NCBI RefSeq assembly: GCF_001293685.1 | Contig: NZ_BCAG01000001.1 | Coordinates: forward strand, 434,001-498,000 | Length of the DNA stretch: 64,000 bases | Origin: Desulfatitalea tepidiphila | GTDB lineage: Bacteria > Desulfobacterota > Desulfobacteria > Desulfobacterales > Desulfosarcinaceae | Direction: 5' to 3' | Part shown: in pieces, positions 34,355 to 52,216 of the stretch | Layout of the letters: the number at the start of each line of letters is the position of its first letter | Numbering within the stretch: the first letter of the stretch is position 1 | The notes under the pieces: generated by a model | Database searches by the model: none | Seen by the model: only the letters and a program-made list of their open reading frames with translations | What the model was told of the DNA's origin: nothing | Position numbers and translations under genes: made by a program

Positions 34355-36856
34355 TTATGCCCGCCCGTTCGCTTCCAGCAACTCCCGCAGCGCCGTCTGC
34401 CGTCGGCTGGTGTCTTCGTTTTTTACGGCCATGGCAAGGGCCTTGCGGGTGCCGACCAGGACTGCCAGTTTGCGGGCGCGGGTGAGACCGGTGTAAATCA
34501 GGTTCCGGAAGAGCATCTTGAAGTGCTGGGTGAGCACGGGGATGATGACCGCTTCGAACTCGCTGCCCTGGGACTTGTGGATGGTGATGGCGTAGGCCAG
34601 GTCCAGTTCCACGATGTCGTCGCGCTGGTAGAAGACGCGGCGGTCGTCCTGGGCAAAATGGACGATACAGGTGAGGGCTTCGTTGTCGATGCGCGCGATG
34701 GAGCCGATGTCGCCGTTGAACACGCCCAGGTCGTAATTGTTGCGGCGATGGATCACCCGGTCGCCTTCGCGGAAGATTCGTTCGCCCACCTTCAGCTGGC
34801 GCTTTCCGGGTGCTTCGGGGTTGGCCGCCGCCTGGATCAGGGCGTTGAGCGACAGGGTGCCCAGGCTGCCGCGGGTCATGGGCGACAGGATCTGGATTTC
34901 ACGGCCGGCACCGAAATATTTGGGGATCCATTCGAGATAGAGCTTCTGAACCACATCCACAGCAGACAATCCATAGTGCAGGGATGACCAGGGATGGACC
35001 TTTTTGACCACGGCCAGCAGTTCCTCGATGCGGCTGCCGGCGGCATAGAGTCGTTCCGGGTCCACATGGCGGAACTTTTCGGGGATGGTCAATTCGGTCT
35101 CGTAGGGCACGATCGGTTCGTCGATGCGGAATTCATAAGGGCTCGTGGCAGGCGACGCGTCGGTGCCCGGCGCCATGCTTTTAAAATCGAAAAAGCGTTT
35201 CACCTTGGCGATGAACGATAGTTGCTCCCGGGTGGCCTCGTCGGAATCGAAAAAGAGGCAGTCCTCGCCGCTGTGCCAGATCTCCGGACGTTTGAAGGGC
35301 GAATCGATGCGGGGCAGGTCCCCCCGGTTGATCTGGTGGGCATAGCGGATGATCAGCGATTGCTCGGCCTGGCGGAAGACCTGGGTCAGGCGGAAGCAGG
35401 GCACCCGGCCCGAGGCGATGATGTCCCGGAGCACGTTGCCGGCGCCAACGGACGGCAACTGGTCCACGTCGCCGATGAACAGGACCTGGCCATGCTCGGG
35501 TACGGCCTTGAGCAGGGACGCGGTCAGGCTGATGTCGAGCATCGAGCACTCGTCCACGATCAGGAAATCGGTGTCGAGCGGCTTTTGCTCGTCGCGTTTG
35601 AAGCGGTCGAGCTGCCATTCGAGCAGACGGTGGATCGTCCGGGCTTCTCGGCCGATCACATCGCTCATGCGCTGGGCGGCCCGGCCCGTGGGTGCGGCCA
35701 GCAGCACCCGGCGGCCCATGGCTTCGATCAGCTTGACCAGCACGCGGGTGGTGGTTGTCTTGCCCACCCCCGGCCCGCCGGTCAATACCGCGAAGCCCTG
35801 GCGCACACAGCCCTCGACAGCCGCGGCCTGGTCCCGGCTCAGGGTCATGCCGGCGGTCCGGCAATAGCGGTCGATCCAGGCCGCCACCCGGTCGGCATCC
35901 ACGGGAACGGACCCCAGCATGGCGCCGATCCGGCGGGCCACGTACCCTTCGTCGTAGTACAAAGAGCGGGCGTAATAGCAGGCCTCGGCCGTTCCATGCC
36001 CGGTGGCTATGCGGCGCATCATCACCAGCCCCTCGGCCGTCATCTGGTCGAGCAGGTCCGGGAGACGCTCGGCCAGCGCCAGGCCGAGCAGTTCGTCGAC
36101 GTGCTCGTTGATTTGTGCTGCGGTCAGGTAGCAGTGGCCGAACTGCCGGCCGGCGGCCAGTACGTGCTTGATGCCGGCCATGATGCGCTGGGGACTGTCC
36201 GGCGCCAGGCCGATACTCAGGGCCACCTTGTCGGCAGAGAAGAAGCCGATGCCGTAAAAGTCGGCGGCCAGCCGGTAGGGGTCCTCGCTCACCATGGCCA
36301 CGGCCTGGTCGCCATAGGCCTTGTAGATGCGCACGGCGAACAGGGTGCTGATGCCGTGGGACTGGAGAAACATCATCACCTCCCGGATGGCGCGGTGTTC
36401 CAACCATGCCGCGCGGATCATCTCCAGTTTTTTTCGGGCAATACCCGGCACCTCGGTCAGCCTCTCGATATCCTCCTCGAAGACCGCCAGGGTCTGCTCC
36501 TTGAAGTGGCGCACGATTTTGCGGGCCGTCTTGGGGCCGACCCCTTTGATCAGGCCCGAGCCGAGATACTTTTCCAGGGCCGCCGCGCTGGCCGGCTTCT
36601 GCTCGATGGCCGTGGCCGCCTGAAATTGGCGGCCGTGCCGGGGATGCATGGTCCATGCGCCGTGGAAAGTCATGGTGGCGCCGGCATACACCCGGGTCTG
36701 GTGGACGATGACCGTTTCCTGCTCATGGGGTTGGTCGAAGGGAGAGACCCGCAGCACCGACCAGCCGTTGTCCGGATTGTGGTAGGTGACCCGGTCCACG
36801 ATCCCGCGCAGGGTTTCGGTGATGATGCCGGTATGCTGGTGGCGCGCTGGCCGCAT
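34355..36856 (-). CDS. RecD2-like ATP-dependent DNA helicase
   Basis: An 833-aa superfamily 1B helicase. N-terminal residues 1-100 include GIITETLRGIVDRVTYHNPDNGW (in parts), the usual RecD2 opening. HhH-type GVGPKTARKIVRHF follows, then Walker A GGPGVGKTTTTR (about residue 360), Walker B IVDECSMLD, and the C-terminal motif YAITIHKSQGSEF with YTGLTRARK. RecD2 unwinds 5'-to-3' and works outside RecBCD in DNA repair. Start chosen at 36856 (MRPARHQHTG) with AGGACGGAACCC upstream; the frame is open to 37225 but that part overlaps the STAS gene. Confidence 0.9.
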   Translation of the reverse strand: MRPARHQHTGIITETLRGIVDRVTYHNPDNGWSVLRVSPFDQPHEQETVIVHQTRVYAGATMTFHGAWTMHPRHGRQFQAATAIEQKPASAAALEKYLGSGLIKGVGPKTARKIVRHFKEQTLAVFEEDIERLTEVPGIARKKLEMIRAAWLEHRAIREVMMFLQSHGISTLFAVRIYKAYGDQAVAMVSEDPYRLAADFYGIGFFSADKVALSIGLAPDSPQRIMAGIKHVLAAGRQFGHCYLTAAQINEHVDELLGLALAERLPDLLDQMTAEGLVMMRRIATGHGTAEACYYARSLYYDEGYVARRIGAMLGSVPVDADRVAAWIDRYCRTAGMTLSRDQAAAVEGCVRQGFAVLTGGPGVGKTTTTRVLVKLIEAMGRRVLLAAPTGRAAQRMSDVIGREARTIHRLLEWQLDRFKRDEQKPLDTDFLIVDECSMLDISLTASLLKAVPEHGQVLFIGDVDQLPSVGAGNVLRDIIASGRVPCFRLTQVFRQAEQSLIIRYAHQINRGDLPRIDSPFKRPEIWHSGEDCLFFDSDEATREQLSFIAKVKRFFDFKSMAPGTDASPATSPYEFRIDEPIVPYETELTIPEKFRHVDPERLYAAGSRIEELLAVVKKVHPWSSLHYGLSAVDVVQKLYLEWIPKYFGAGREIQILSPMTRGSLGTLSLNALIQAAANPEAPGKRQLKVGERIFREGDRVIHRRNNYDLGVFNGDIGSIARIDNEALTCIVHFAQDDRRVFYQRDDIVELDLAYAITIHKSQGSEFEAVIIPVLTQHFKMLFRNLIYTGLTRARKLAVLVGTRKALAMAVKNEDTSRRQTALRELLEANGRA

Positions 36857-37017
36857 GGGTTCCGTCCTGGTGGCGATGAGGGCAAGGCTGCCCGTAAGCC
36901 TGAGGGGCATGCCTGACGGGCAAGCATGATGGGCAAGCCAAGAGCGCAACGCTATAGCGCAAGATAGATGAAAAAGGGCCGGGGCGTCAATGGCATTACA
37001 ACCATCGCCGCGCTCGA

Positions 37018-37350
37018 TCAGAACGCTTCGAGCGCCGCCTCCGGTGTATCGAAGTACTTGAAGAGGGAGAAGAATCCCGAGATCTGAAATACCTTTTTGA
37101 CCGAACCCCCGGCCGCGGCCAGTCGGATCTCCCCGCCATCGGCCTTCAATGCCTTGGCCGCGGCGAGGACCACGCGCAGCCCCGCACTGCTGACATACGC
37201 CAATCCGGAAAGATCGAAGACCCATTTCTTCTCATTTCGTTTGAGGGCTTCCCGGGCCTGCTCCTCGAACGCCGGGGCGGTATGGGTGTCCAGGCGTCCT
37301 CGAAGGGAGGCCACCAGCGTATCGGCTTGCACTCGAAAGTCAACTTCCAT
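37018..37350 (-). CDS. STAS-domain protein (anti-sigma factor antagonist-like)
   Basis: A 110-aa single STAS domain: VQADTLVASLRGRLDTHTAP, then VFDLSGLAYVSSAGLRVVL (residues 44-62), where the SpoIIAA-type phosphorylation loop lies (SSAG at 54-57). STAS proteins bind HATPase-type partner switches. A gene with an RsbW-like N-terminal domain (43391-44728) is the first gene of this same operon. The start overlaps the MFS gene stop by 11 nt. Regulation of the operon products or of a sigma factor by partner switching is inference. Confidence 0.85.
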   Translation of the reverse strand: MEVDFRVQADTLVASLRGRLDTHTAPAFEEQAREALKRNEKKWVFDLSGLAYVSSAGLRVVLAAAKALKADGGEIRLAAAGGSVKKVFQISGFFSLFKYFDTPEAALEAF

Positions 37351-38545
37351 TGTTTTTCTCCTTTCTCGTCCATATGAGCACTACGGCCAGCAGGCTGAGC
37401 ACCGCGCAGCAATGATAGAGCGAGGCATATCCCCAGCGGTCCAACAGAGGCGCGCCGATCAGGGGGCCCAGGAAGAAGCCCGCCTGGAACATCTGCAGGC
37501 CGAGGTTGATATTGAAGGCACGGAAACGGGGTTTGGACACATCGAAGATCAACCCGTTGAAGACCGGCATGGCCACGCCCCACCCCAATCCGAAGATCAG
37601 ACCCAGGGCAAAAAAGAGCCACTCGCCGGGAACATGGGCCAGCGCGGCATAAGCCAGGCCCAGCGCCGCCAGGGCCGCGGCCGCCAGCCGCCGTTTGTCC
37701 ATGCGGTCGAAGAGCGTTCCGGCGGCGACGCGGATACCGATTTCACCCGCAGTGGAGAGGGTCAGGAAAACTCCCGCACAGGCGATCCGAATCGATTGTC
37801 CATAGCCATCCAAAAAGAAAAAGACCATGGCGTGCCCGCAGTAGAGCAGCAGCATGGCGGCCAGAATGCGCAACACCCGCGCATCTTTTAAATTGGCCAT
37901 GATTTCCCGGCCGGTCAGGGCGGAGGCTGTATCATCCCCCGACGGCATGGGCTCGCGTCCGGAGACGAACACGACCAGCGGGAACACCAACAGGGTCAGC
38001 AAGGCGAACATCAACAGGATGCGGTTGAAGCCACCCAGGTGCGCGTCCAGAAACGGCAGCAGCGGGGGAATCAGGGTGTAGGGCAGCAGGGTCACCACGG
38101 CCAGGTATCCGAAGAACTGGGCGCTTTTGGCCTTGGGGATGACGCCCACCACAGCGGTCATCAGGGCCGTTCCGAGCACCGCAAAGGCGGTCCCGTGAAA
38201 GAGGCGCACCAGCAGCATGCTCCAGAATCCGGCCGCGATCGTGTAGGCGGCCAGGGCGGCGACGGCCAGAGCGGTGCCGATGAAGAGCAACAGCCGCGTG
38301 TTGCCGGCGTGGGAAAAGGGACTGACCAGCGGGCGTACCACCAGGGATGCGGCTGCCATGGCGCCGATCAGGATGCCGTAATCGGCCGGCGATACGGGCA
38401 GAGCCCGCAGATGGTCCACGAAACCGAAAAAGACGGCCACGTTGGCATAGGCCAGGAAAGCCGCGGCCATCAAGGCCAGGAACTTGCGGGACGTGAGCAG
38501 GCCGGCGCCGGATGAGCCCATCGCCAATGCAGGGGCGTCGCTCAT
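37340..38545 (-). CDS. Major facilitator superfamily transporter
   Basis: A 401-aa membrane protein with about 12 hydrophobic helices. The N-terminal helix is FLALMAAAFLAYANVAVFFG; a cytoplasmic loop after TM6 is PMPSGDDTASALTG; the TM7 half follows. The start at 38545 (MSDAPALAMGSSG) overlaps the stop of the hydroxylase gene by 4 nt, and the stop overlaps the STAS start. MFS drug and metabolite exporters have this size. It probably moves a substrate or product of the neighbouring hydroxylase and ligase genes, but direction is unknown. Confidence 0.87.
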   Translation of the reverse strand: MSDAPALAMGSSGAGLLTSRKFLALMAAAFLAYANVAVFFGFVDHLRALPVSPADYGILIGAMAAASLVVRPLVSPFSHAGNTRLLLFIGTALAVAALAAYTIAAGFWSMLLVRLFHGTAFAVLGTALMTAVVGVIPKAKSAQFFGYLAVVTLLPYTLIPPLLPFLDAHLGGFNRILLMFALLTLLVFPLVVFVSGREPMPSGDDTASALTGREIMANLKDARVLRILAAMLLLYCGHAMVFFFLDGYGQSIRIACAGVFLTLSTAGEIGIRVAAGTLFDRMDKRRLAAAALAALGLAYAALAHVPGEWLFFALGLIFGLGWGVAMPVFNGLIFDVSKPRFRAFNINLGLQMFQAGFFLGPLIGAPLLDRWGYASLYHCCAVLSLLAVVLIWTRKEKNNGS

Positions 38546-39966
38546 GAAGCTTGCTCCACCGTGTCTGCCGTCGCCTGGCGCGTTGGACGGTCGTCCGCGA
38601 GCCGCAGCAGCAGATTGCCGGCGACCCGGCGGCGGTAATCGGCGCCGGCGCGGACATCGCTGATCGGGGAAAGGTGTCGGCTGACCAGGGGCCGCAACGC
38701 GTCCAGGGTCTTCTGGTCGAGCCGACCTCCGCACAGGGCCGCTTCGACCTCCGGCAGGCGCACGACCGTGGGGCCGACGCTGCCCCACGCCAGGCGGGCG
38801 CGGTCGATGCCGCCGGTGTCGTCGAACGTGACGACCGCCGCCAGGCTGGCCACGGCGCAGGCCATGGCTTGTCGCAGTCCCACTTTTTCAAAGTGCTGAC
38901 GCGCATCCGCCGCCGGCTTGGGAATGATCACCGCGGAGATGATTTCGCCGGGCATCAGTGCGGTCTGTCCGGGCCCGGTGATAAGCGACGCGATGGGCAG
39001 ATGACGGGTGCCTTCGGCCGATTGAACGGTCACCGTGGCGTCGAGTACATGCAGGGGCGGCAGGGTGTCTCCGGCCGGCGAGGCCGTGGCCAGGTTGCCG
39101 CCGATGGTGCCCACGTGCCGGATATGGGGCGATCCCAAGGTTCGAAGTGCCTGCTTCAATACCGGAAAGTGTCGGGAGACGAGGGGATCGGCCAGCAGCG
39201 CCTCATGGGTTGTGGCGGCGCCGATCCGGACGGTATCGGGGGTTTCGGCGATGCCGCGCAGCGCGTCGATGCGCTCCAGGCCGATCAGGGCCGGTGAGTC
39301 GATCTTTCCATTCCGGCGCCATACCAGCAGGTCGGTGCCGCCAGCGAAGACCCGCGCCTGGGGATATTGAGCGAGCAGGGGCCACAGATCCTCCAATGTG
39401 CGGGGCATCCATACCGGGCTGCCCGCGGTCGTCCCTCCGGGCCGGCCGGCGTTTCGGAGGCCGTTTGGCGGCGGATCCGGCGCCGGCTCCTGGCGGGAAC
39501 ACGGCATGGGCGGGGTGTTCCCGGCATCCATGACGGCCGACACGATCTTCTGATATCCCGTGCAACGGCACAGGTTGCCACTGACGGCCTCGATGACCTC
39601 ATCGTGGCGCGGTTCGGGGTGACGCGCCAGCAGATCCACCGCCGTGAGCACCATGCCGGGCGTGCAGAAGCCGCACTGCACGGCCCCGTGTCGCACAAAG
39701 GCGGCCTGGACCGGGTGCAGATGCTCTCCGGGGGCCAGACCTTCGATGGTGGTGATCTTGCGGCCTTCCAGTTGGGGGACCAGCATCAGGCAGGAGAGCC
39801 GGCTGCGGCCGTCCACCAGAATCGTGCAGGCCCCGCACTCGCCGGTGCCGCACCCCTCCTTGGTGCCGGTCAGGCCCAGGTCCTCCCGGAGCAGATCCAC
39901 GGCCCGGCGGTCGGCGGGTGCGTCCAGGCAAATCGGTTTTCCGTTCAATTCGAATTCAATCTTCAT
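38542..39966 (-). CDS. Molybdenum hydroxylase fused 2Fe-2S and FAD subunit
   Basis: A 474-aa fusion. Residues 1-150 are the CoxS-type small subunit with plant-type [2Fe-2S] ligands GCGTGECGACTILV and the second cluster CGFCTPGM and NLCRCTGY. Residues 185-460 are a CoxM-type FAD domain (RVFAGGTDLLVW, HVGTIGGNLATASPAGD). These are usually two separate genes. It works with the large subunit encoded immediately upstream, its start overlapping that stop by 11 nt. It passes electrons from the Mo site through the Fe-S centres to FAD. Confidence 0.92.
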   Translation of the reverse strand: MKIEFELNGKPICLDAPADRRAVDLLREDLGLTGTKEGCGTGECGACTILVDGRSRLSCLMLVPQLEGRKITTIEGLAPGEHLHPVQAAFVRHGAVQCGFCTPGMVLTAVDLLARHPEPRHDEVIEAVSGNLCRCTGYQKIVSAVMDAGNTPPMPCSRQEPAPDPPPNGLRNAGRPGGTTAGSPVWMPRTLEDLWPLLAQYPQARVFAGGTDLLVWRRNGKIDSPALIGLERIDALRGIAETPDTVRIGAATTHEALLADPLVSRHFPVLKQALRTLGSPHIRHVGTIGGNLATASPAGDTLPPLHVLDATVTVQSAEGTRHLPIASLITGPGQTALMPGEIISAVIIPKPAADARQHFEKVGLRQAMACAVASLAAVVTFDDTGGIDRARLAWGSVGPTVVRLPEVEAALCGGRLDQKTLDALRPLVSRHLSPISDVRAGADYRRRVAGNLLLRLADDRPTRQATADTVEQAS

Positions 39967-42268
39967 GGCTGCCGCTTTCCGAAAGGGCCGTGAGAATGCG
40001 TTCCGCGGTCAGGGGGAAGCGGAACAGCCGCCGGCCGCAGGCATCGCTCACGGCATTGGCGATGGCCGGCGCGGGCGCATCGATGCCGATTTCGCCGGCC
40101 CCCTTCATCCCGAAGGGGCCGCTCTGTTCGGCCGTCTGCACGGCGATGGTTTCCATGGCCGGCATGTCCGCCGCCGTGGGCAGGATGTAGGTGGCCAGGT
40201 CGTTGGTCTGCAGCCGGCCCTGGCGGGCAATGACATCTTCGAACAGGGCATATCCCACGCCCTGGGCCACGGCGCCTTCCTGCTGGCCTTCGAAGAGGCG
40301 GGGGTTGACGATCCGGCCGCAATCGCTCACCGTGAGATAGTCGATCACCGCCACCTGCCCGGTCAATCGGTCCACCTCCACCCGGGCCAGGTGGACGGCA
40401 TAGGAGAAGATGGCGTGCGGAAATCCGTGCAGCCGCAGGTTGGCATCGTCGGTCCCCTTTTCCCTGGACACCGGGGCCCGGTAATGATGGGTCGCGAAGC
40501 GTTCGGCGGCATTGAGCGCCCGGCCGAGCATGGCCAGGGGCAGCTCTTTCCCGGACGGAAGATGACGCACGGCGCCGGGGATCAGGGTCAGTTCGGATGG
40601 ATCGGCGATCATCAAAAAGTCGGCGGATCGGGCCAACAGCCGCTTTCTCAGGGCCTCGGCGGCCGGTATCAGGGCGTTGCCGAAGGTGTAGGTGGTTCGG
40701 CTGGCCGTCGCCGAGCCGCTGGGAAAGGTGCGGTCCGTGTCGGGCAGCACCAGGACGAAGTTTTCAGACGGCTGGGAGAGAATGTCGCCGGCCATCTGCT
40801 GGTAGGTGGCCACATTGCCCTGGCCCATGTCGACCACCCCCGCCAGGATGCGGAAGCGGCCGTCGCCCATCAACTCGATGCCGGCCGTGGCTGCATCGGG
40901 CACCACGGGGCCGTACCCCATGCCGTGGGACACGCAGGCGATGCCCGTGCCCCGCAGGCAATGCGGCCCGGCCGCGGCCCGCCATTCATGGCGCGATTGC
41001 CAGAGCCGATGCTGCTCGACGGTCTGCAGGCAGGTCGACAGGCCGATGGTGCCCTGGCGCGTCACGCCCGCCGGGCAGCGGTCGCCGCGCACCAGGGCGT
41101 TTTTCACGCGCAAGGCCAGCGGACAGGTCCCCAGTTTTCGTGCCAGCATGTCCATCATCGATTCCATGGCAGCGGCCACCTGCGGCACGCCGAAGCCGCG
41201 GAAGGCGCCGGAGATCGGATTGTTGGTGTAGATTGCCCAGGCCTGGAGATCCGTGTGGGGAATCCGGTAGGGGCCGCCGGCATGTTCGAGGCCCAGGGCC
41301 GCCACGACCCCGCCCAGGTGATCATACGGTCCGGTATCGAAATAGATGCGCGCCGAAAGCGCCTGCAGCACGCCGTCGCTGGATGCGCCGAGCCGGTAAT
41401 AGAGCCGGGCCGGATGCCGCTTGACCCCGGCCAGGAAACTCTCCTCCCGGCGCCACCACATCTTGACCGGACGTCCCGGGCAGCGCAGGGCGGCCAGAAC
41501 CAGCAGGCTCTGCACGTTGATGCCGTCCTTGCCGCCGAAGGCGCCGCCGCAATAGGGCGCTATGATGCGGATGCGATCCATCTCCAGCCCCAGGGCTTCG
41601 GCCACTTCCAGGCGGTCTCGAAACGGGGTCTGGGTGGATACGGTGATCTCGATCCGCCCGTCATCGCCGGCCAAAGCCCATCCGTTTTCGGTTTCCAGAA
41701 ACGCGTGCGCCTGGCGGGGCACCTCGAAACATCCTTCCACGACCGAATCGCAGGCCGCCAGGGCGCTGTCGCCGTCGCCCGTGCAGATCCGGGCCGAGAA
41801 CAAAGCATTGCCCTGGGCATGGTCCGGATGAATGATCGGCGCATCGGCCGCCAGGGCCGCTTCGGGATCGAAAACCGCCTCGAGCGGTTCCAGATCGAGG
41901 TTAATTCGATCCAGGGCCTCGGCCAGGGCGGCCGGGTTGTCGGCCACCACCAGGGCCACCGGGTCCCCGCAATGGCGCACCCGTTCGTCGGCCAGTACCG
42001 GCTGGTCCTTGCGGACCACCCCCTGGCGGTTGGTGCCGCCCACATCCGCTGCGGTCAATACGGCCTGCACGCCGGGCACCTCCAGCGCCGCCTGGGTCGC
42101 GATGCCGCGGATGCGCGCATGGGGGACTCCGGCACGCTTCACGCCGGCCCACATAAAGCCGGGTGCGTATCCGTCCACGGCGTATTTTTCCGTGCCGGTC
42201 ACCTTGGTCAGGGCATCGGGCCGAATCATCGCCTCGCCGACCTGAAATACCCGCCTCTTATCGGTCAT
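39956..42268 (-). CDS. Molybdenum hydroxylase large (molybdopterin) subunit
   Basis: A 770-aa xanthine-dehydrogenase-family subunit. Motifs include YCGGAFGGKDG (cofactor region), AFRGFGVPQ, and the catalytic Glu in GMKGAGEIGIDAPAPAIANAV near residue 725. It hydroxylates a carbon centre (aldehyde, heterocycle or similar) with water-derived oxygen using Mo-cytosine dinucleotide. The substrate-pocket residues do not let me choose a substrate. It is coupled to the aminotransferase upstream (11-nt overlap) and the fused electron-transfer subunit downstream. Maturation factors of XdhC/MobA type are encoded at 5062-7274. Confidence 0.92.
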   Translation of the reverse strand: MTDKRRVFQVGEAMIRPDALTKVTGTEKYAVDGYAPGFMWAGVKRAGVPHARIRGIATQAALEVPGVQAVLTAADVGGTNRQGVVRKDQPVLADERVRHCGDPVALVVADNPAALAEALDRINLDLEPLEAVFDPEAALAADAPIIHPDHAQGNALFSARICTGDGDSALAACDSVVEGCFEVPRQAHAFLETENGWALAGDDGRIEITVSTQTPFRDRLEVAEALGLEMDRIRIIAPYCGGAFGGKDGINVQSLLVLAALRCPGRPVKMWWRREESFLAGVKRHPARLYYRLGASSDGVLQALSARIYFDTGPYDHLGGVVAALGLEHAGGPYRIPHTDLQAWAIYTNNPISGAFRGFGVPQVAAAMESMMDMLARKLGTCPLALRVKNALVRGDRCPAGVTRQGTIGLSTCLQTVEQHRLWQSRHEWRAAAGPHCLRGTGIACVSHGMGYGPVVPDAATAGIELMGDGRFRILAGVVDMGQGNVATYQQMAGDILSQPSENFVLVLPDTDRTFPSGSATASRTTYTFGNALIPAAEALRKRLLARSADFLMIADPSELTLIPGAVRHLPSGKELPLAMLGRALNAAERFATHHYRAPVSREKGTDDANLRLHGFPHAIFSYAVHLARVEVDRLTGQVAVIDYLTVSDCGRIVNPRLFEGQQEGAVAQGVGYALFEDVIARQGRLQTNDLATYILPTAADMPAMETIAVQTAEQSGPFGMKGAGEIGIDAPAPAIANAVSDACGRRLFRFPLTAERILTALSESGSHED

Positions 42269-43394
42269 GATTCAACATCTCCGCCAATGCTTCCACCAGG
42301 GCGTGCATGGCATCGGGCAGACCCACGGTGACGCGGATCCAGTTGGGAAATCGGAACCCGGCCATGCTGCGCACCATCACCCCATGGGTCATCAGTTTGC
42401 GATAGGCCAGGGTATCGCTCATGGGCAGACGGACCATGAGAAAGTTCCCCTCGCCCGAGACATGGGTCAGGCCCAGATAGTCCAGTTCCCGGGTCAACAT
42501 GGCCTTGGCGTCGCGGACCAGCGCCCGGGTGGCCAGGATGTGCTCGTGGTCGTCGAGCGCCTTCAGCGCCGCCTCCTGGGCCAGGCCGTTGACCGAATAG
42601 ACCACGCAGGTGCGCCGGATGATATCCACCACGTCGCGGTCGCCGGCCAGATACCCGATGCGCAGCCCGGCCAGGGCGTACATTTTGGAAAAGGTCCGGA
42701 AGACCACCAGGTTGGGATATTCGGCGATGAGACCCAGGCCGTCCGGGAAATCCGGCTGCTCCACGAATTCGCAGTAGGCCTCGTCCACCACCACGATCTG
42801 GCGGCCGGCCACGCGGTCGAGAAACCGGCGCAGCCGTTCCTCGCTCCAGTAGGTGCCCGTGGGGTTGTTGGGATTGCAGACGAACAGGATCTTGGTGCGT
42901 TCGTCGATGCGCGCCAACATGCCCGCGTCGTCGTAGGCGAAACCCTTCAACGGCACCAGTCGGGCCTCGAAGCCGGAAAAAGTGGCCACCCACTCGTACA
43001 CCGCAAAGGTCTTGTCTGCGGTGACGATGTTGTCCCCTTCCTGGCAAAAAGCTTTGATCACGAAGGCGATCACCTCGTTGGCGCCGTTACCCACGAGGAA
43101 CTGGTCCGGGTGCAGGCCGAACCTGTCGGCCAGTTTGCAGCGTAGATGGTAGGCGTCGCCGCTGGGATAGACAGAGGCTCGGGGCGGCGGATAGGTTTCG
43201 ATGATCCTGCGGGCGGCCGGCGGCGGGCCCAGGGGGTTCTCGTTGTTGTTCAGGCGCAGGAGCCGGCTGCAGCCGGCCATTTTCATCAGCACATCGTCGG
43301 GTTTGCTGGGGATGTAGGCCTCGAAGCACTTGATGTGGTCCGGGACCAGCCGGTCGATGGCCATTTTATCCATGCAGGCGTCGTTCATTGTCAT
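42258..43394 (-). CDS. Histidinol-phosphate aminotransferase-like PLP enzyme
   Basis: A 378-aa class I/II aminotransferase of the HisC type: LNNNENPLGPPPAARR (about residue 49), VCNPNNPTGTYWSEE (about 170), VVDEAYCEFVEQ, and the PLP lysine in FRTFSKMYALAGLRIGY (about 230). HisC homologues also transaminate aromatic amino acids or amino alcohols in natural-product pathways. It sits between the HATPase-GNAT and hydroxylase genes with overlaps on both sides (4 and 11 nt), not with histidine biosynthesis genes. Its substrate probably belongs to the same unusual pathway. Confidence 0.87.
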   Translation of the reverse strand: MTMNDACMDKMAIDRLVPDHIKCFEAYIPSKPDDVLMKMAGCSRLLRLNNNENPLGPPPAARRIIETYPPPRASVYPSGDAYHLRCKLADRFGLHPDQFLVGNGANEVIAFVIKAFCQEGDNIVTADKTFAVYEWVATFSGFEARLVPLKGFAYDDAGMLARIDERTKILFVCNPNNPTGTYWSEERLRRFLDRVAGRQIVVVDEAYCEFVEQPDFPDGLGLIAEYPNLVVFRTFSKMYALAGLRIGYLAGDRDVVDIIRRTCVVYSVNGLAQEAALKALDDHEHILATRALVRDAKAMLTRELDYLGLTHVSGEGNFLMVRLPMSDTLAYRKLMTHGVMVRSMAGFRFPNWIRVTVGLPDAMHALVEALAEMLNHDR

Positions 43395-44728
43395 GCGTCG
43401 GTTCTCAACTGGAATATCAACAGGTCCGCCGAACCGGCATGAGGCAGAATCATGCGGGGAAAAAATCCCAGGGCGATCAGTCCGGGAGTGAAACCCGCCT
43501 GCCAGGGTTGCCCCAGATCCATCTCGAACAAGATCGTCGCCATGGCTTCCCGGCGCAGCAGTTCCACATGGGCGGCCATATTCTTCGCCTTGTCCTCACC
43601 GGGCCAGATCGGCCGCAAGGTGGCGACGGCGAGGCGCCGGTCGATTTCGGCGCTGAGGACCGAGAACGGTTCATCGGCCTCGCCGTCCGAACCGGCTGTC
43701 TGGATATCCCGTGGGAACACGAGGCGCCGATATTCGCTTTGCAGAAAACCGACCACAACGGGATGGGCCCACACCACTTCCCCCGTCTCCTCGACCATCA
43801 TTCTGAACCGGGCGCGGGCCGGACTGCTGACATCACCTGAGATGTCGTTCTGTTTTGGCTCCAGCGCTTCCAGGTACCCTTCGGGAAGATCGGGCGTGGG
43901 CATGCGGTTGATCAGGGCCAGCGCCGACGTCCGCGCCACATGCCCGATACACCTGTCCATGAGGTCGCGGGCCATTTGCGGGTCGCCGTGTTCCTGAAAA
44001 ATATAGGGGCCGAAAAGTTCGACGGTCTTGCGCCCTTCCCATCGCCAGGCGATCCCGCCGCCCAGTTCGCCGGCAGGACCCTTGGCGGTTACAATCTGGT
44101 AGTCTCCGCCAGCCGCCATATCCACCACCTTGCCTGGATAGCGAAAATCCAATGGGAAAAGGGCATCCGGATAGCATTGGGTTACCAGGCGAAGGAACCA
44201 TTTGACATGGGCCGCATCCGCGGCCTGCAAGGTGTACTGGCTCAACTTTCCGGGCGTCGGCGACTGAGTGTCCCTTTTGATCTCCGGATACGGCAACTCT
44301 TTGACCAGGGTGAGCACCAGGTGTTGGCCGGCCGACCGGGTGATGTGGAACCGGTCGGTCATGCGCGAGGCGATCAGCAGCCCCATCTGATCGAGGCCGG
44401 CGTCATCCTCGGCATTCACCGTTGCGGTCATGTTGAAGGCATGCAGCTGCAACTGCCGCACCGGCAGAGATATCTTCGTCTCGATGAAACAGCTTCCGGC
44501 CGAACAGCGGATGTCGACATCCTGCTCGGATTGGGCCATCCGGGCAAGATAGGCGATGATCTCTTCGGTGGCCAGGGAGAGCGCATCGGCGCCATCCTCA
44601 TCGAGCCCCAGACCCTGGGCCGCCTGGTTCACGAATGCGGCCGAAAGGGGAATGAACGCCTCGGCGACCGGCATTTTCATCACAATCGATCGGTTTTCTT
44701 TTTTTGGCGTCATGGTGTCCATTGCCAT
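43391..44728 (-). CDS. HATPase (RsbW-like) N-terminal domain fused to GNAT-like acyltransferase
   Basis: A 445-aa protein. Residues 20-145 resemble an RsbW/HATPase_c_2 domain: LSLATEEIIAYLARMAQ (the usual Asn of the N-box is Tyr here) and DDAGLDQMGLLIASRM. Residues 165-445 resemble a GNAT-type acyltransferase (GGGIAWRWEGRKTVELFG, FEMDLGQPWQAGFTPGLIALGFFP) and align in pattern with the separate protein at 46725-47762. It is the first gene of a six-gene overlapping operon that ends with a STAS gene. Altered ATP-site residues suggest binding without kinase activity. The start could be 44728 or 44713; no clear ribosome site decides. Confidence 0.75.
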   Translation of the reverse strand: MAMDTMTPKKENRSIVMKMPVAEAFIPLSAAFVNQAAQGLGLDEDGADALSLATEEIIAYLARMAQSEQDVDIRCSAGSCFIETKISLPVRQLQLHAFNMTATVNAEDDAGLDQMGLLIASRMTDRFHITRSAGQHLVLTLVKELPYPEIKRDTQSPTPGKLSQYTLQAADAAHVKWFLRLVTQCYPDALFPLDFRYPGKVVDMAAGGDYQIVTAKGPAGELGGGIAWRWEGRKTVELFGPYIFQEHGDPQMARDLMDRCIGHVARTSALALINRMPTPDLPEGYLEALEPKQNDISGDVSSPARARFRMMVEETGEVVWAHPVVVGFLQSEYRRLVFPRDIQTAGSDGEADEPFSVLSAEIDRRLAVATLRPIWPGEDKAKNMAAHVELLRREAMATILFEMDLGQPWQAGFTPGLIALGFFPRMILPHAGSADLLIFQLRTDA

Positions 44729-44972
44729 GTTATCGGTTGGAAGGCCCGCGAAGTTTACTTCAAAAATGACCCAAGGACGCTAAAAATAGCGCACCGGTTA
44801 AAGATTTCCCGGTCAAAGCCAATAAGATAGTGTCCACCCGCATCACCCGCAGCCCGATGGTCTTGCGGTCGGTCATCCGGCAACGATTAAGGAAACCGGT
44901 AGCATCGGCGGGCGGTCTCGACATCCGGATCACCCATTTGATATGTCTTTAGCAAGAGGTTGGAGGTTCACC
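44729..44972. promoter_or_regulatory. Divergent promoter region of the two unusual operons
   Basis: This 244-bp region separates the minus-strand HATPase-GNAT operon from the plus-strand ligase operon. It contains CGCTA-AAAA-TAGCG near 44778 and GGAGG at 44962-44966 before ATG 44973. A shared regulator would act here; no site can be named. Confidence 0.5.
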
Positions 44973-46469
44973 ATGATCGAAAACGCGGCCGTCGCATTAC
45001 TCGCGCCCAACCTGGAGCGACACCCGGACAAGATCGCCTATTTCTGTGGCGCGCAATCGATCACCTACCGCGAGCTGGATTCGGCGTGCCGCCGATTCGC
45101 GTTTGGGTTGCAGCAGCGCGGCATCCACCCCGGCGAACGGGTCTTGATCGTCTTGCCGGATGTGCCGGCTTTTCCCATCGCCTTTTTAGGATCCATCATG
45201 GCCGGCGTGGTGGCCATCGCTGCCGGAACGACCCTCTCGGAGGCTGATGTGGCCTACATCCTGAAGGACAGTGGCGCCCGTCTGCTGATCACCCATCCGG
45301 CGCTGTCCGCGCCGCGAGCCGCCGCCAGCGGCAAGGTGGATGAGATCCTCTGCGAACCCGAGGGCGGCCTGGCCGCATCCGGATCCGAGCCGGCGGCCGA
45401 TTGGCAGCCTTACGCGCCCGCGGCCGAGGATTTCGCCTTCATGCTCTACAGCTCCGGTTCCACGGGTCAGCCCAAAGGCATTCCCCACCGTCACCCGGAC
45501 CTGATGGCGCCGTCCCGCCGGGTGGGCGAGGAGATATTGGGCCTCCGCGCCCAGGACGTGATCTTTTCGGCCAGCAAATTGTCTTTCGCGTATGGATTGA
45601 TCAACAGCCTGGTCTATCCGCTGTTTTTCGGCGCATCGGCCGTTCTTCACCCGGGAAAGCCCGATCCGGCCGAGATTCTGAGGATTATCGAACAGCATCG
45701 GCCGACGGTCTTTTTTTCGGTTCCCACCATCTACATGCAATTGATCCTCTCGTGCGGGGCCGATCAGATGAAGTTCCCCATGCGGCTCTGCTGTTCGGCC
45801 GGCGAGGCCTTGCCGGAATCCATTTTCGAAGAGTGGCGACGGCTCACCGGCCTGGAGCTGATCGATGGGATCGGTTCCACCGAGGCGTGCTGTATCTATA
45901 TTTGCAATCGACCCGGACGGGCGCGGCCCGGATCGACCGGGCAGATCGTCCCCGGCTTCAGCATCCGTATCGTGGACGACGATCTCAACGATGTGCCGCC
46001 GGGCGTGGAAGGGCATCTGTTGATCAAGGGGGACACCCTGGCCCCCTTTTATTGGAACCGGCCCGAAAAGAGCGCGGCGACCATGTTGCCGGACGGTTAT
46101 GTGCGCACCGGAGATGTTTTCGTGGAGCAGGACGGGTATTATTACTACCGCGGCCGCAGCGACGACATGATCAAGGCCGGCGGGCAATGGATTTCGCCGG
46201 TACGTGTGGAGGATGCGCTGCACAGGCATCCGGCCGTAGCCGAATGCGGCGTCGCCGCGATATCGGTCGGCGGACTGGCCAAGCCGGGCGCTTTCGTATT
46301 GCTCGCACCCGGTGTGCGGCCAGGGGCCGGATTGACCCGCGAACTGCGCGATCACATGCTCGATCTGCTCCCGGAGTATATGTGCCCGGCGCGCTTCATT
46401 TTTGTCGAAGATCTGCCGCGCACGGCTACGGGAAAGGTGAAACGATTCGAACTCAGAAAAGCAATCTAA
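44973..46469 (+). CDS. Acyl/aryl-AMP ligase, benzoate-CoA-ligase-like
   Basis: A 498-aa adenylate-forming enzyme: FMLYSSGSTGQPKGIPHRH (about residue 152), DGIGSTEACCIYIC (about 300), VRTGDVFVEQ and hinge motif GRSDDMIKAGGQWISPVRVE, with the catalytic Lys in RTATGKVKRFEL. Closest in style to benzoate-CoA ligases. The next gene is a carrier protein, so it may load an acyl or aryl group onto the carrier rather than onto CoA. GGAGG gives start 44973; the open frame from 44943 lacks a site. Confidence 0.87.
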   Translation: MIENAAVALLAPNLERHPDKIAYFCGAQSITYRELDSACRRFAFGLQQRGIHPGERVLIVLPDVPAFPIAFLGSIMAGVVAIAAGTTLSEADVAYILKDSGARLLITHPALSAPRAAASGKVDEILCEPEGGLAASGSEPAADWQPYAPAAEDFAFMLYSSGSTGQPKGIPHRHPDLMAPSRRVGEEILGLRAQDVIFSASKLSFAYGLINSLVYPLFFGASAVLHPGKPDPAEILRIIEQHRPTVFFSVPTIYMQLILSCGADQMKFPMRLCCSAGEALPESIFEEWRRLTGLELIDGIGSTEACCIYICNRPGRARPGSTGQIVPGFSIRIVDDDLNDVPPGVEGHLLIKGDTLAPFYWNRPEKSAATMLPDGYVRTGDVFVEQDGYYYYRGRSDDMIKAGGQWISPVRVEDALHRHPAVAECGVAAISVGGLAKPGAFVLLAPGVRPGAGLTRELRDHMLDLLPEYMCPARFIFVEDLPRTATGKVKRFELRKAI

Positions 46470-46489
46470 TGGAAAGGACGACATTTGCC

Positions 46490-46723
46490 ATGGTTACGGT
46501 TGAGGAATTGAAACGGATCATGTGCCATGCCGGCGTCGAGCGATCCATCGTCGACGCGATGGACCCGGCCAAACCCCTCTTGTTGCAGGGCATGGATTCC
46601 ATCGATTATCCGGTATTCGCATTGGCCGTGGAAGAGAAGTTCCGGGTGCGGATATCGGACCGCGATGCCCTGCAATTAAAGACACTCGACGATTTCAAGC
46701 GCTTTATCGAAGGGAACCGGTGA
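46490..46723 (+). CDS. Acyl carrier protein-like (phosphopantetheine attachment) protein
   Basis: A 77-aa carrier (84 aa if the ATG at 46469, overlapping the ligase TAA, is used). The phosphopantetheine motif is LLLQGMDSIDYPVFALAVEE, with Ser in DSID the likely attachment site, followed by a typical helix (FRVRISDRDALQLKTLDDFKRFIE). AAAGGA at 46473-46478 favours 46490. It lies between the AMP ligase and the GNAT-like gene, 1 nt from the latter, so it probably carries the activated acyl group between them. Confidence 0.85.
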   Translation: MVTVEELKRIMCHAGVERSIVDAMDPAKPLLLQGMDSIDYPVFALAVEEKFRVRISDRDALQLKTLDDFKRFIEGNR

Positions 46724-46724
46724 T

Positions 46725-47762
46725 ATGGACAGACCAGAGGCCCTTGAATGGCTGGCCGATGAGCGTCACGAGATTCCGGCAGGACAGGAATTCAAAGCCG
46801 GCCTTTTCGAACCGGCCGATGCGCCGGGTATTGCGCGGCTGTTTTACGCCGTTTATGGCGACGGCTATCCCATCGACACCTTCTACATCCCCGATCGCCT
46901 GATCGCGCAGCATCGCACGGGCGAGTTGCACAGTGCCGTGGCCCGCGCACCGCGCGGCGACATCGTGGCCCATGCCGCTCTCTTTCGCAGTTCGGCGCCC
47001 AACCCCCATCTCTACGAATCCGGCCTGGGATTGACGCTGCCGGCCTATCGCACCACCATGGCCTTTTACCGGGCCTATCAACTCACCATGAAACTGGTCG
47101 GCCGAGATGGCGTCGATGGGATTTTCGGTGAAGCGGTGTGCAACCACACCACTACGCAGAAACTGTCCAAAACCAGCCGGTGCATCGAGACCGGGCTGGA
47201 GCCTGCCCTGATGCCCGCCGAGGCGTATGAGACCGAACAGAGCGCCCAGGGCCGCGTCGGGTGTATGCTTTTTGCCCGGGTGGTCAATGACGATCGCAAG
47301 GTGCTCTATGTGCCTGAGGGGTATCGAGAGCAGCTGGCTTTTATGTTAGATGGATTGAACCTGGACCGCGAACTGCTGCCCTCGCACCTCGGCCTTCCGG
47401 GCGACGACGGCGCCATTCAGGTGACCCGCTTCGATTTTGCCCAGGTGGCCCGCTGCATCGTCGCCGCGCCGGGACGCGGACTCTCCGCTCGGTTCAGGGA
47501 TCTGGAAGAAGAGATGCGGCGGTTCAATTTTGCGCTGATCCAAGTCTACGTGGATTTGGGCCAGCCCTGGGCGGGTGCGATGGTCGCCCTGCTGCGGGAG
47601 TTGGGGTATCGCCTGGGAGGATTTTTACCGATCTGGTTCGGCAGTGACGGGTTGTTGATGCAGAAGCATTTCGTGGATCCCGATCTGGACGGTCTCGAGA
47701 TTCTCTCCGACCGGGGCCGTCGTTTGGTCGAGATGATCCGCGAGGATATGCAAAGGGGTTAA
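46725..47762 (+). CDS. GNAT-like acyltransferase, paralogue of the HATPase-GNAT fusion C-terminus
   Basis: A 345-aa protein with a GNAT-like opening (AGLFEPADAPGIARLFYAVY, about residues 24-45) and later VYVDLGQPWAGAMVALLREL, parallel to FEMDLGQPWQAGFTPGLIAL in the protein at 43391. It lacks the N-terminal HATPase domain. Directly after the ligase and carrier protein, it likely transfers the carrier-bound acyl group to an amine or hydroxyl acceptor (inference). Residues needed for acyl-CoA binding are not obvious, consistent with a carrier-protein donor. Confidence 0.75.
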   Translation: MDRPEALEWLADERHEIPAGQEFKAGLFEPADAPGIARLFYAVYGDGYPIDTFYIPDRLIAQHRTGELHSAVARAPRGDIVAHAALFRSSAPNPHLYESGLGLTLPAYRTTMAFYRAYQLTMKLVGRDGVDGIFGEAVCNHTTTQKLSKTSRCIETGLEPALMPAEAYETEQSAQGRVGCMLFARVVNDDRKVLYVPEGYREQLAFMLDGLNLDRELLPSHLGLPGDDGAIQVTRFDFAQVARCIVAAPGRGLSARFRDLEEEMRRFNFALIQVYVDLGQPWAGAMVALLRELGYRLGGFLPIWFGSDGLLMQKHFVDPDLDGLEILSDRGRRLVEMIREDMQRG

Positions 47763-47791
47763 AAAAAGGCCCTCCCCAGAAGGAGAGGGCC
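47761..47791 (-). terminator. Rho-independent terminator of the thiolase transcript
   Basis: On the minus strand the hairpin GGCCCTC ... GAGGGCC (47791 to 47768) is followed by a run of seven U (complement of 47761-47767). It ends the minus-strand acyl-CoA operon and overlaps the last codons of the plus-strand GNAT-like gene. Confidence 0.85.
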
Positions 47792-47831
47792 TGAGAACAA
47801 CGGTGTTTCAACACAGAAGACGTACAGAAAC

Positions 47832-49040
47832 TTATCGCTGCAGGTTCTCGATCACGGTGGCCACGCCCAGCCCGCCGCCGCAGCAGGAGCTGAAGAAACC
47901 GTAACGACCCTTGCGGCGGATCAACTCGCGCATGGCGAACATGCAGACGCGGGCGCCCGATGCTCCGTTGGGGTGGCCGAAGGCGATGGCGCCGCCCAGG
48001 GGGTTCCATTTGTCCATATCGACCTTGTCGCCGGTCTGCTTTTCCAGTTCCTTGATGACCGCCAGGTTCTGGACGGCAAAGGCCTCGTTGCACTCCATGA
48101 TGTCCATCTGGGAGAGTTTCAAGCCGGCGCGTTTCAGGGCCAGGGGAATCGCGTAGGCCGGTCCGATACCCATGATCTTGGGATCCACGCCGTAGTCGCC
48201 GCCGGCCAGCCATTTGGCCATGGGGGTGTAGCCCAGCTCTTTGGCCTTTTCGGCGGTCATCATCAGCACCATGGCGCCACCGTCGTTGCGGCCCGAGGCG
48301 TTGCCCGCAGTCACGGTGCCGTCCTTGGTGAAAGCCGGGGGCAATTTGGCCAGGCCTTCCAGGGTGGTGTCGGGACGGCAGTGTTCGTCGACTTTGAAGA
48401 CGACTTCCGGGGTCTTGCGCGTGGCGGGGAAGACGACCGGCACGATCTCTTCGTCAAACCAGCCGGACTCCATGGCTTTCTTGGCGCGCATCTGGCTGTT
48501 GTAGGCGAATTGATCCGACGCTTCGCGGGAAATATTGTACATCTTCTGCAGGTTCTCGGCGGTCAGCCCCATGCCGATGGCTTCTTCTTTCACCGGTGAC
48601 AGGGTGGTGTTCAAAGGCATGGGCGGAATCAGCTTGTAGGGAGGGGTCGACATGGAAAACTTCACCGGGATCTGGCTGTAGGCCTCGCTGCCGCCGGCGA
48701 TGACGATGTCGGCGTGGCCGCAGAGAATTTTCCAGGCCGAATGGTTGATCGAATCGATGGCCGAACCGCACTGCATCTCCACGTAGGAGGCCGAGGTTTC
48801 ATAGGGCAGGCCCGCATCCAGTGACGCCCAGCGGGCCGGGTTGACGGCCACCGAGCAATGGGCGGCGATGCCCATTATCACGCAATCCACCTTGGCTTTT
48901 TCCATGATCTTGGTTTTTTCCAGCAGTCCCTTGATGGCGATGCTGGCCAGTTTCGAGGCCGGGATGTCGCGCAGCGTCCCGCCCATACGTCCGAACGCGG
49001 TGCGAACCGCATCCACAAATACGACTTCTCTTTCTGCCAT
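47832..49040 (-). CDS. Acetyl-CoA C-acetyltransferase (thiolase)
   Basis: A 402-aa thiolase. The nucleophilic Cys is in VEMQCGSAIDS (about residue 88), the catalytic His in FGHPNGASGAR (about 350), and the second Cys in SSCCGGGLGVA near 386. It cleaves 3-ketoacyl-CoA or condenses acetyl-CoA. The gene is last in the acyl-CoA cluster, 70 nt after the ligase gene, with GGAG before ATG 49040. The cluster context favours a degradative role. Confidence 0.93.
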   Translation of the reverse strand: MAEREVVFVDAVRTAFGRMGGTLRDIPASKLASIAIKGLLEKTKIMEKAKVDCVIMGIAAHCSVAVNPARWASLDAGLPYETSASYVEMQCGSAIDSINHSAWKILCGHADIVIAGGSEAYSQIPVKFSMSTPPYKLIPPMPLNTTLSPVKEEAIGMGLTAENLQKMYNISREASDQFAYNSQMRAKKAMESGWFDEEIVPVVFPATRKTPEVVFKVDEHCRPDTTLEGLAKLPPAFTKDGTVTAGNASGRNDGGAMVLMMTAEKAKELGYTPMAKWLAGGDYGVDPKIMGIGPAYAIPLALKRAGLKLSQMDIMECNEAFAVQNLAVIKELEKQTGDKVDMDKWNPLGGAIAFGHPNGASGARVCMFAMRELIRRKGRYGFFSSCCGGGLGVATVIENLQR

Positions 49041-49110
49041 GTTTTTCTCCTTTTAATCGATTTAATCGATTCGTTAAAATGAAATCCCGCTCTAATGACC
49101 GGGGGATTCC

Positions 49111-50778: not shown

Positions 50779-50930
50779 GTTGTCTCCTTTAATGCCCTAT
50801 AGTGATTGTATCGACTCCTGCTCAGTCCAGTACGGGCCTATCTTTGCTGTAACAAAGAACGCCGAAGTCCACCTGTGGTTGGTCCGATTAAAGGTTGGTT
50901 GAACTCGTTTTTATTTCTATTACAATAGGT

Positions 50931-50965
50931 TGCATGGTGCTCAAGGCCTGGTCGGCCACCATGCA
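50931..50965. promoter_or_regulatory. Extended inverted repeat upstream of the acyl-CoA ligase gene
   Basis: TGCATGGTG (50931-50939) pairs with CACCATGCA (50957-50965), with GGCC/GGCC inside. It is about 150 bp before the minus-strand ligase start and beyond the stop of the winged-helix ferredoxin gene, so it could be a terminator hairpin or a regulator site. It has no U-tract. Confidence 0.45.
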
Positions 50966-51056
50966 AACTGTCAAGTTGTTCCATTTTTTTACGATCTTCG
51001 CCATACGCTAGTTGGGCGTTAAATGCAACTTCGCGTGCGGCTCCCCTCGGATAGTT

Positions 51057-52148: not shown

Positions 52149-52173
52149 GGTTTTCTTCCCCTCCGCGGGAGAT

Positions 52174-52216
52174 CCAACGCCGATATCGGGCCGATTGGCC
52201 ATTTGTGGATGGGCAC
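52174..52216 (-). repeat. Family B half-element (B3)
   Basis: CCAACGCCGATATCGGGCCG through GGATGGGCAC matches one arm of the family-B element (terminal repeat plus adjacent interior). Its last base is the first base of the stop codon complement of the nitronate monooxygenase-family gene, so the repeat edge coincides with that gene's end. Only half of the element is present. Confidence 0.75.

Follow-up and report, generated by a model that had tools for sequence, protein, structure and literature searches.

The window analysed here is a stretch of 64,000 nucleotides from Desulfatitalea tepidiphila, and the locus in question is a pair of divergent gene sets within it. On the minus strand lie genes for a STAS protein, an MFS transporter, the fused 2Fe-2S/flavin adenine dinucleotide (FAD) subunit and the large subunit (MoL) of a molybdenum hydroxylase, a HisC-like aminotransferase and a fusion of an RsbW/SpoIIAB-type ATPase fold with a GNAT-like region, which we call HATG; on the plus strand lies a trio encoding an adenosine monophosphate (AMP)-forming ligase, a carrier protein and a second GNAT-fold protein. 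A check of the open reading frames found nine genes, placed exactly where an earlier interpretation made from the letters alone (the sequence-only reading) had put them; its total of ten was an overcount, and its description of six minus-strand genes overlapping by 4 or 11 nt was borne out, the overlaps from the STAS gene to HATG being 11, 4, 11, 11 and 4 nt. The ligase and carrier genes overlap as TAATG. Seven of the nine genes were well identified by Pfam and NCBIfam. The HATPase_c_2 domain of HATG fell just below threshold (26.4 against a cut-off of 27.4 bits, residues 30-140), neither the GNAT part of HATG nor the second GNAT gave a Pfam or NCBIfam match, and a PHROGs search with both GNAT-type proteins returned no match.

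Table 1. Genes and other features of the locus, with positions in the window.
Feature	Position	Strand	Basis
STAS protein, anti-anti-sigma type	37018-37350	minus	PF01740 73.7 bits; TIGR00377 also above cut-off
MFS transporter (putative by family)	37340-38545	minus	PF07690 128 bits; neighbour in 22 of 40 HATG loci
Fused 2Fe-2S/FAD subunit of molybdenum hydroxylase	38542-39966	minus	Fer2_2, FAD_binding_5, CO_deh_flav_C
MoL, molybdopterin-binding large subunit, xanthine dehydrogenase/aldehyde oxidoreductase family	39956-42268	minus	MoCoBD_1/2
HisC-like pyridoxal phosphate aminotransferase	42258-43394	minus	TIGR01141 305 bits (cut-off 276.55); Aminotran_1_2 (Pfam)
HATG, RsbW/SpoIIAB-fold and GNAT-like fusion, 445 residues	43391-44728	minus	Predicted structure, PDB fold matches
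AMP-forming ligase, benzoate-CoA ligase family	44973-46469	plus	TIGR02262 424.4 bits (cut-off 375.25); AMP-binding (Pfam)
Acyl/aryl carrier protein, DSID phosphopantetheine site	46469-46723	plus	PF00550 (PP-binding) 28.8 bits (cut-off 20.8)
Second GNAT-fold protein, trio subfamily, 345 residues, FGEAVCNH..QK motif	46725-47762	plus	Predicted structure, PDB fold matches
Divergent intergenic region between the two operons	44729-44972		No sigma-70-like site by consensus scan
Terminator-like hairpin, 11 pairs, T-run on minus strand	47767-47792	minus	Fits end of convergent thiolase run

Predicted structures backed the calls of a HATPase-GNAT fusion and a second GNAT, both invisible to Pfam. AlphaFold models, built from alignments of the window and relative sequences, had predicted local distance difference test (pLDDT) scores of 88 for HATG and 94 for the second GNAT. 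In fold searches HATG matched RsbW/SpoIIAB structures best (E ∼1e-7; 6m37, 1til) and GNATs more weakly (best E 3e-4; 2jlm among the PDB matches), while the second GNAT matched GNAT enzymes of the PDB (best E 1e-8) and gave 429 PDB matches at E <=0.001, the best 50 of which were acetyltransferases apart from one multidomain protein containing a GNAT region. A search of solved-structure sequences with the GNAT alignment gave weak GNAT matches only (best E 0.013). The RsbW/SpoIIAB-like fold of HATG covers residues ∼13-143 and the GNAT-like region ∼158-441; this N- and C-terminal placement derives from the Pfam match and the profile alignment, the fold table carrying no model ranges. In that alignment the GNAT region of HATG and the second GNAT show homology across 276 columns (E 7e-8), and single-sequence BLAST between the two proteins was significant over the last 65 residues only.

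HATG has the fold of an RsbW-type anti-sigma kinase and has lost the residues that would make it one. The N-box Glu, catalytic in RsbW, is kept in all 34 HATG sequences, the N-box Asn and the G1 Asp in none; the first G2 Gly is likewise absent from all 34, as it is from the longer fusions described below, and the last G2 Gly is kept in 30 (one N-terminally extended open reading frame, L059, was left out of one motif count). All 12 comparison RsbW proteins carry every motif, N-box Asn and G1 Asp included. Because these ATP/Mg motifs are lost, HATG is probably not a kinase, and we rejected its assignment as a classical RsbW. The profile alignment showed no arginine-containing acyl-coenzyme A (CoA) loop in its GNAT part. 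Five positions are invariant in 24 sequences (D202, G223, G239, P240 and D434, numbered on the 444-residue row used for model and alignment, which omits the first codon and so runs one lower than the protein).

Long fusions of an RsbW-type domain to a GNAT region, with frames of ∼490-535 aa, were also seen (L034, L036-L038, L040, L042, L046, L048, L110:7593-9173 and L125:9497-10972) and form an uncharacterised protein family; in genome G110 (L046, L158) one of them lies directly after a SpoIIE phosphatase. Those of L054, L110 and L125 all retain the N-box Asn, and two of the three the G1 Asp, so the degenerate form in HATG probably arose from an active type or in parallel to one.

We followed the locus through other genomes in two ways. 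Scanning named genomes with the second GNAT gave 62 loci, reduced to 61 (L067-L127) on dropping L066, which shares its contig with L061; L127 had no profile match and is counted among the 61. By hidden Markov model annotation these carry HATG in 26 cases, HisC in 34, MoL in 25 and MFS in 33; the complete ligase-carrier-GNAT trio is present in 10, and HATG adjoins HisC in 25 of the 26 loci that have it. The second set came from a search of a phylum sample with HATG only, from which 40 of 47 strong matches were taken. HisC is present in 39 of these 40 loci and adjacent to HATG in every one of the 39 (a scripted rule scored 38, missing L190 solely through an extended reading frame). Three of the 40 loci lie on contigs that the first set already contained, and with these excluded the adjacency is new in 36 of 37. 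The other neighbours in the HATG-found set were MoL and an iron-sulfur (FeS) subunit (27 each), a FAD subunit (26), MFS (22), GNAT (19), STAS and SpoIIE (14 each), RsbW (12), the binding protein (10), ligase and MobA (3 each), and XdhC and carrier (2 each), the lower counts being minima because 16 of the 40 stretches do not reach 16 kb.

HATG and the HisC-like aminotransferase are thus, by gene content, a constant pair around which the molybdenum hydroxylase, MFS and GNAT genes recur, and since this gene order recurs in dozens of genomes it is not due to chance. Evolutionary distances of HATG, HisC, MoL, FAD and MFS correlate pairwise (r 0.54-0.86, with 0 of 999 permutations as high for each of the ten pairs), which fits joint inheritance of the five core families. 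Among 146 relatives HATG was found in 13 and the second-GNAT family in 22, with 12 shared (Fisher 6e-11). HATG occurred in 39 of the 246 genera sampled in the phylum; judged by these matches, the operon type is widespread, being present in sulfate-reducing and related bacteria.

The trio behaves differently from this core. In a quick tree of 88 rows the window's second GNAT falls in a clade of ten (support 100) whose members all lie beside a ligase and/or carrier gene and whose hosts span Thermodesulfobacteriota, Chlorobiota, Pseudomonadota, Nitrospirota and a Bacillota bin. HATG and HisC are next door in six of the ten (the window, L067, L069, L070, L071 and L074); L061 belongs to G007, whose HATG contig starts with a ligase (L060), the contigs of L068 and L073 are short, and L072 has the trio, its ligase present only as an 89-aa ligase-like frame, with no HATG, HisC or MoL in ∼21 kb. 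In four relatives (L067, L069, L070 and L071) the trio runs co-directionally into HATG-HisC and beyond, which supports the view that the two operons belong together. In L067, from Desulfobulbus elongatus DSM 2908, the genes follow one another as binding protein, phosphatase, STAS, ligase, carrier, GNAT, HATG, HisC, MoL, FeS, FAD and MFS; this single run holds counterparts of all nine genes of the locus plus a binding protein and a phosphatase, and its FeS and FAD subunits are separate genes, as in many relatives, whereas those of the window are fused. The sequence-only reading had held that finding the operons separate in most relatives would refute it. Among the loci that have the trio this is not the case: HATG-HisC stands beside it in six of the ten, and in a seventh (L078) on a longer view of the same contig (L052). 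Because L072 and L080 carry a trio without HATG, HisC or MoL, and HATG loci rarely carry a ligase or carrier, the trio is best described from gene content as an accessory module that plugs into the core.

Within the trio, the second-GNAT family keeps R109, H141 and Q145 in 45 of 45 sequences. Of the acyl-CoA loop, with its motif R/Q-x-x-G-x-G/A, the Arg is kept in all 45 (RTTMAF in the window) and the Gly at the fourth loop position in only 22, so that the family as a whole departs from the motif; the RTTMAF loop would be in keeping with a donor that is not free acyl-CoA. The listed carriers have DS[IVL]D in 13 of 13, two of these coming from one contig counted twice. Some members of the family occur elsewhere. 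Two Desulfarculus genomes (L107:7567-11790 and L112:1239-5617) have four tandem paralogues with none of the rest of the operon in the stretch, and the start of the MFS frame in G023 (L050, G023:C1:5134665-5134874) shares 50% identity with residues 13-82 of the second GNAT of the window and may be what is left of a trio-type GNAT that lay upstream of the transporter.

Relatives carry, in or beside the operon and with varying completeness, the parts of a partner switch, namely a STAS protein, a stand-alone RsbW, an NMT1-type binding protein and a Cache/HAMP/PP2C protein. The PP2C phosphatase at L145:8913-10865 has SpoIIE at 193 bits together with HAMP and PDC/Cache-type domains. The window itself has only the STAS gene of the switch. 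The source genome has one SpoIIE-domain protein and one strong stand-alone RsbW, both beside a binding protein at C1 84.5-87.8 kb, ∼385 kb from the window STAS and with no STAS gene beside them; this RsbW (G000:C1 84.5 kb) is canonical, matching PF13581 at 67 bits with its ATP motifs present. The window STAS is 94% identical to that of G007, 57% to that of the G023 cluster and 34-46% to those of several other clusters, and of the five other STAS domains of its own genome three match it at <=24% over 51-90 residues and two do not match. We take the window STAS to be the putative missing fourth member of the unlinked set of binding protein, SpoIIE phosphatase and RsbW.

The distribution of the phosphatase bears on whether this switch and the operon work together. 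Among the 146 relatives, a full-length selection of the 13 best matches (at least 563 bits) placed the phosphatase in 13 genomes, 10 of which have HATG and all of which match the GNAT family (22 of 146 overall); the other three (G004, G012 and G141) have no strong HATG and carry long HATPase-GNAT fusions instead. In the phylum sample of 395 genomes, with an orthologue threshold of E <=1e-100, the phosphatase was found in 41 of 47 genomes with HATG against 18 of 348 without (Fisher 5e-35, kinship ignored). The 47 are a strong set left from 51 after the short or weak matches in G190, G241, G487 and G255 were dropped, and with all 51 kept the overlap becomes 44; excluding genomes shared with the 146 relatives, 36 of 42 HATG genomes have the phosphatase. 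The two genes lie within 20 kb of each other in 16 of the 41 genomes; in the other 25 a greater distance separates them or they sit on different contigs. This co-occurrence of unlinked genes is the best evidence, drawn from genome comparison, for a joint action of switch and operon. That the set is a unit and that a partner switch is involved are both well supported. The earlier suggestion that the STAS and RsbW-like proteins form a partner-switch pair is in this way supported and extended to a set of sensor, phosphatase, kinase and STAS protein, with one correction: the HATPase domain of HATG is degenerate and no ordinary RsbW partner, and the canonical RsbW is encoded elsewhere in the genome.

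The enzymes give leads to the chemistry. MoL shows the features of a molybdenum hydroxylase of the xanthine dehydrogenase family, with MoCoBD domains, FeS and FAD subunits and the catalytic Glu of the GxGE motif; its GGxFGGKDG and GxGE motifs are invariant (F244-G249 and E726 in 30 of 30). The nearest solved structure is nicotinate dehydrogenase (3hrd), followed by aldehyde oxidoreductase. Xanthine dehydrogenase proper was rejected, the models listed all scoring below cut-off (best large-subunit score 551.8 against 783.65 bits), and no equivalog model exceeded its cut-off for either subunit; with GGKDG in 30 of 30, the enzyme forms a distinct group by sequence. The XdhC gene of L124 scores above the cut-off of an aldehyde-oxidoreductase maturation model, a hint of aldehyde-type substrates. 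A second HisC-like gene, 37% identical to that of the operon, lies elsewhere in the genome; we therefore rejected a role in the histidine pathway only, and the TIGR01141 match of the operon HisC does not imply histidine synthesis.

The ligase would by family activate an aryl acid. Its nearest solved structures are benzoate-CoA ligase 2v7b (near full-length) and anthranilate-CoA ligase 4wv3, and in the stretch that we take to line the pocket it reads GSTEACCIYI against GSTEMLHIFL in 2v7b. Inside or beside the trio, L074:5560-9900, L075:4564-8811 and L080:11075-15560 have two HGD-D and two BcrAD/BadFG-type genes of the benzoyl-CoA-reductase/2-hydroxyacyl-CoA-dehydratase type, identified by Pfam in L074 and by clustering in L075 and L080. 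In five loci of Syntrophorhabdus-like bins (L113-L116 and L126) the GNAT instead follows an aminotransferase, indolepyruvate ferredoxin oxidoreductase-like subunits and a glycosyltransferase-like gene; the oxidoreductase call comes from a family search on L114 that stayed below equivalog cut-offs and from clustering for the others, and the arrangement is a different operon using the second-GNAT family. HGD-D/BcrAD-type and indolepyruvate oxidoreductase families handle aryl-acyl thioesters, and because both neighbour families do so an aryl group is favoured, making aryl-acyl chemistry the best lead to what the pathway may do.

The reading we prefer, and hold tentatively, is that the locus encodes a small-molecule pathway under a phosphorylation partner switch, with STAS docking on HATG and an aryl conjugate being made and exported; its switch part is more likely than its chemistry. 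An engaged periplasmic sensor would cause the phosphatase to dephosphorylate STAS, and free STAS would leave RsbW and dock on the pseudo-RsbW domain of HATG, which, as the output of the switch controlling the pathway, would change its activity, most likely that of the adjacent aminotransferase. The ligase would charge the carrier with an aryl-type acid, which the second GNAT would transfer to an amine, and the conjugate or an oxidised form of it would leave via the MFS transporter. The reaction order put forward by the sequence-only reading, in which a carboxylate is activated, passed to an amine from the aminotransferase route, oxidised and moved by MFS, is a guess from gene names.

Several observations weigh against this reading. 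Regarding the switch, 18 of the 59 phosphatase genomes have no strong HATG match, 6 of the 47 HATG genomes lack the phosphatase orthologue, L067 yielded no RsbW within its 21 kb despite its binding protein, phosphatase and STAS, and STAS could simply serve the unlinked RsbW and a sigma factor. Regarding the unity of the set, L194 has HATG without any partner in 19.9 kb; L080 (∼21 kb) has a trio without HATG, HisC or MoL, with MFS and a core-type GNAT nearby, which counts against a link between trio and core; the trio is rare among HATG loci (a ligase match in 3 of 40, a carrier in 2 of 40); and the core-type GNAT of many relatives is absent from the source genome (single GNAT match). The Fisher and permutation values take no account of shared ancestry or of the species tree.

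Two other explanations are each unlikely, with neither the better placed. In the first, HATG would work as an atypical anti-sigma factor or as a co-regulator of transcription; together with STAS it would act on an unlinked sigma factor that switches the operon on, and its GNAT part would be a binding fold only. The RsbW/SpoIIAB fold, the lack of an acyl-CoA loop in the profile alignment and the unlinked switch sets of many genomes all agree with this. Against it, the neighbour of HATG is an enzyme gene, HisC, in 39 of 40 loci, the ATP motifs of HATG are lost, and no sigma-factor family is among the recurring clusters identified, although several clusters remain unidentified and no sigma-factor search was made. 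In the second, the operon is catabolic: an aromatic or N-heterocyclic compound, for which the binding protein is the sensor, would enter through MFS and be hydroxylated by the molybdenum enzyme, after which the ligase would activate the product and HisC would take off nitrogen. Many hosts belong by name to groups known as anaerobic degraders, molybdenum hydroxylases and benzoate-CoA ligases are typical of degradation routes, and nicotinate dehydrogenase is the nearest solved relative of MoL; a dedicated carrier protein and GNATs are not known as typical of catabolism, and no ring-cleavage or beta-oxidation family recurs in the core among the clusters identified.

Slightly less probable again is that HATG is an active pathway enzyme whose fused parts bind a different cofactor or an acylated carrier protein, STAS regulating something else. 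Five positions invariant across distant genomes and the constant pairing with an aminotransferase would suit an enzyme, but neither the ATP motifs nor the GNAT acyl-CoA loop is kept in HATG, which moreover tracks the switch phosphatase. A bolder form of our preferred reading, which we regard as improbable, is self-sensing chemical signalling, in which the operon would export an aryl-amide-type conjugate, the NMT1-type protein would sense it or a precursor, and phosphatase, STAS and HATG would set enzyme activity directly with no sigma factor. That the two operons are unrelated and divergent by chance is very improbable: trios with no HATG, HisC or MoL nearby do occur in L072 and L080, and in L076 as far as its short contig reaches, but chance adjacency is disfavoured by the recurring gene order, by single co-directional runs of trio and core in four relatives from three phyla, and by the homology of the two GNAT-type proteins.

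A scan for the sigma-70 consensus gave one site only, outside the divergent region and fewer than the chance mean of 2.3, and an Rfam search of the window gave no match. Read on the plus strand, directly after the second GNAT, the hairpin of Table 1 has no T-run. Downstream of STAS is a RecD2-type helicase (window 34355-37225, minus strand); its frame, taken from the earliest start available, reaches into the STAS gene, and the real start is therefore probably further in. A convergent run (window 47832-52202, minus strand) encodes a thiolase, a second AMP-binding protein of acyl-CoA ligase type and a 4Fe-4S protein, and no link to the operon was seen.

Partner switches are known chiefly as a means of releasing sigma factors. 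The set described here resembles SpoIIAA/SpoIIAB/SpoIIE and RsbV/RsbW/RsbU of Bacillus in that STAS, an RsbW-fold kinase with E..N, D.G and GGLG motifs and a PP2C phosphatase with a sensor recur together. It differs in having an extra RsbW-fold protein that lacks the ATP motifs, is fused to a GNAT region and is tied to an aminotransferase, in a sensor set that includes a periplasmic NMT1-type binding protein, and in that no sigma factor was identified in the cluster, no search for one having been made. Among the enzymes, the molybdenum hydroxylase shares with xanthine dehydrogenase, nicotinate dehydrogenase and aldehyde oxidoreductase its domain set, its FeS/FAD subunit and, in several relatives, XdhC- and MocA/MobA-type maturation genes, but passes no equivalog model and belongs to a group with invariant GGKDG; the ligase passes the benzoate-CoA ligase model (TIGR02262) but is encoded with its own carrier and differs in the GSTEACCIYI stretch. 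LuxI-type GNAT-fold enzymes use carrier-bound acyl groups, and we presume a likeness in the GNAT fold encoded here beside a ligase and an acyl carrier protein; the second GNAT differs in being two-lobed and 345 residues long with FGEAVCNH..QK, and there was no LuxI among the five solved sequences matched.

The sequence-only reading had known of no described system with this set, and we likewise found no description of it in excerpts of open-licence PubMed Central (PMC) full text, where the nearest topics were a STAS review (PMC8256260) and PMC11418112. According to that review, the BtrU/V/W partner switch of Bordetella has type III secretion as its output, outside the classical stress response (PMC8256260); the switch here would share a non-classical output, proposed to be a small-molecule operon.

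The conserved companion of the switch is here a predicted pseudokinase, fused to a GNAT-like region and locked beside a metabolic enzyme. If STAS docks on HATG, enzymes rather than transcription would be the output of a partner switch and the uncharacterised HATPase-GNAT fusions would gain a role, and the operon points to an undescribed metabolite.

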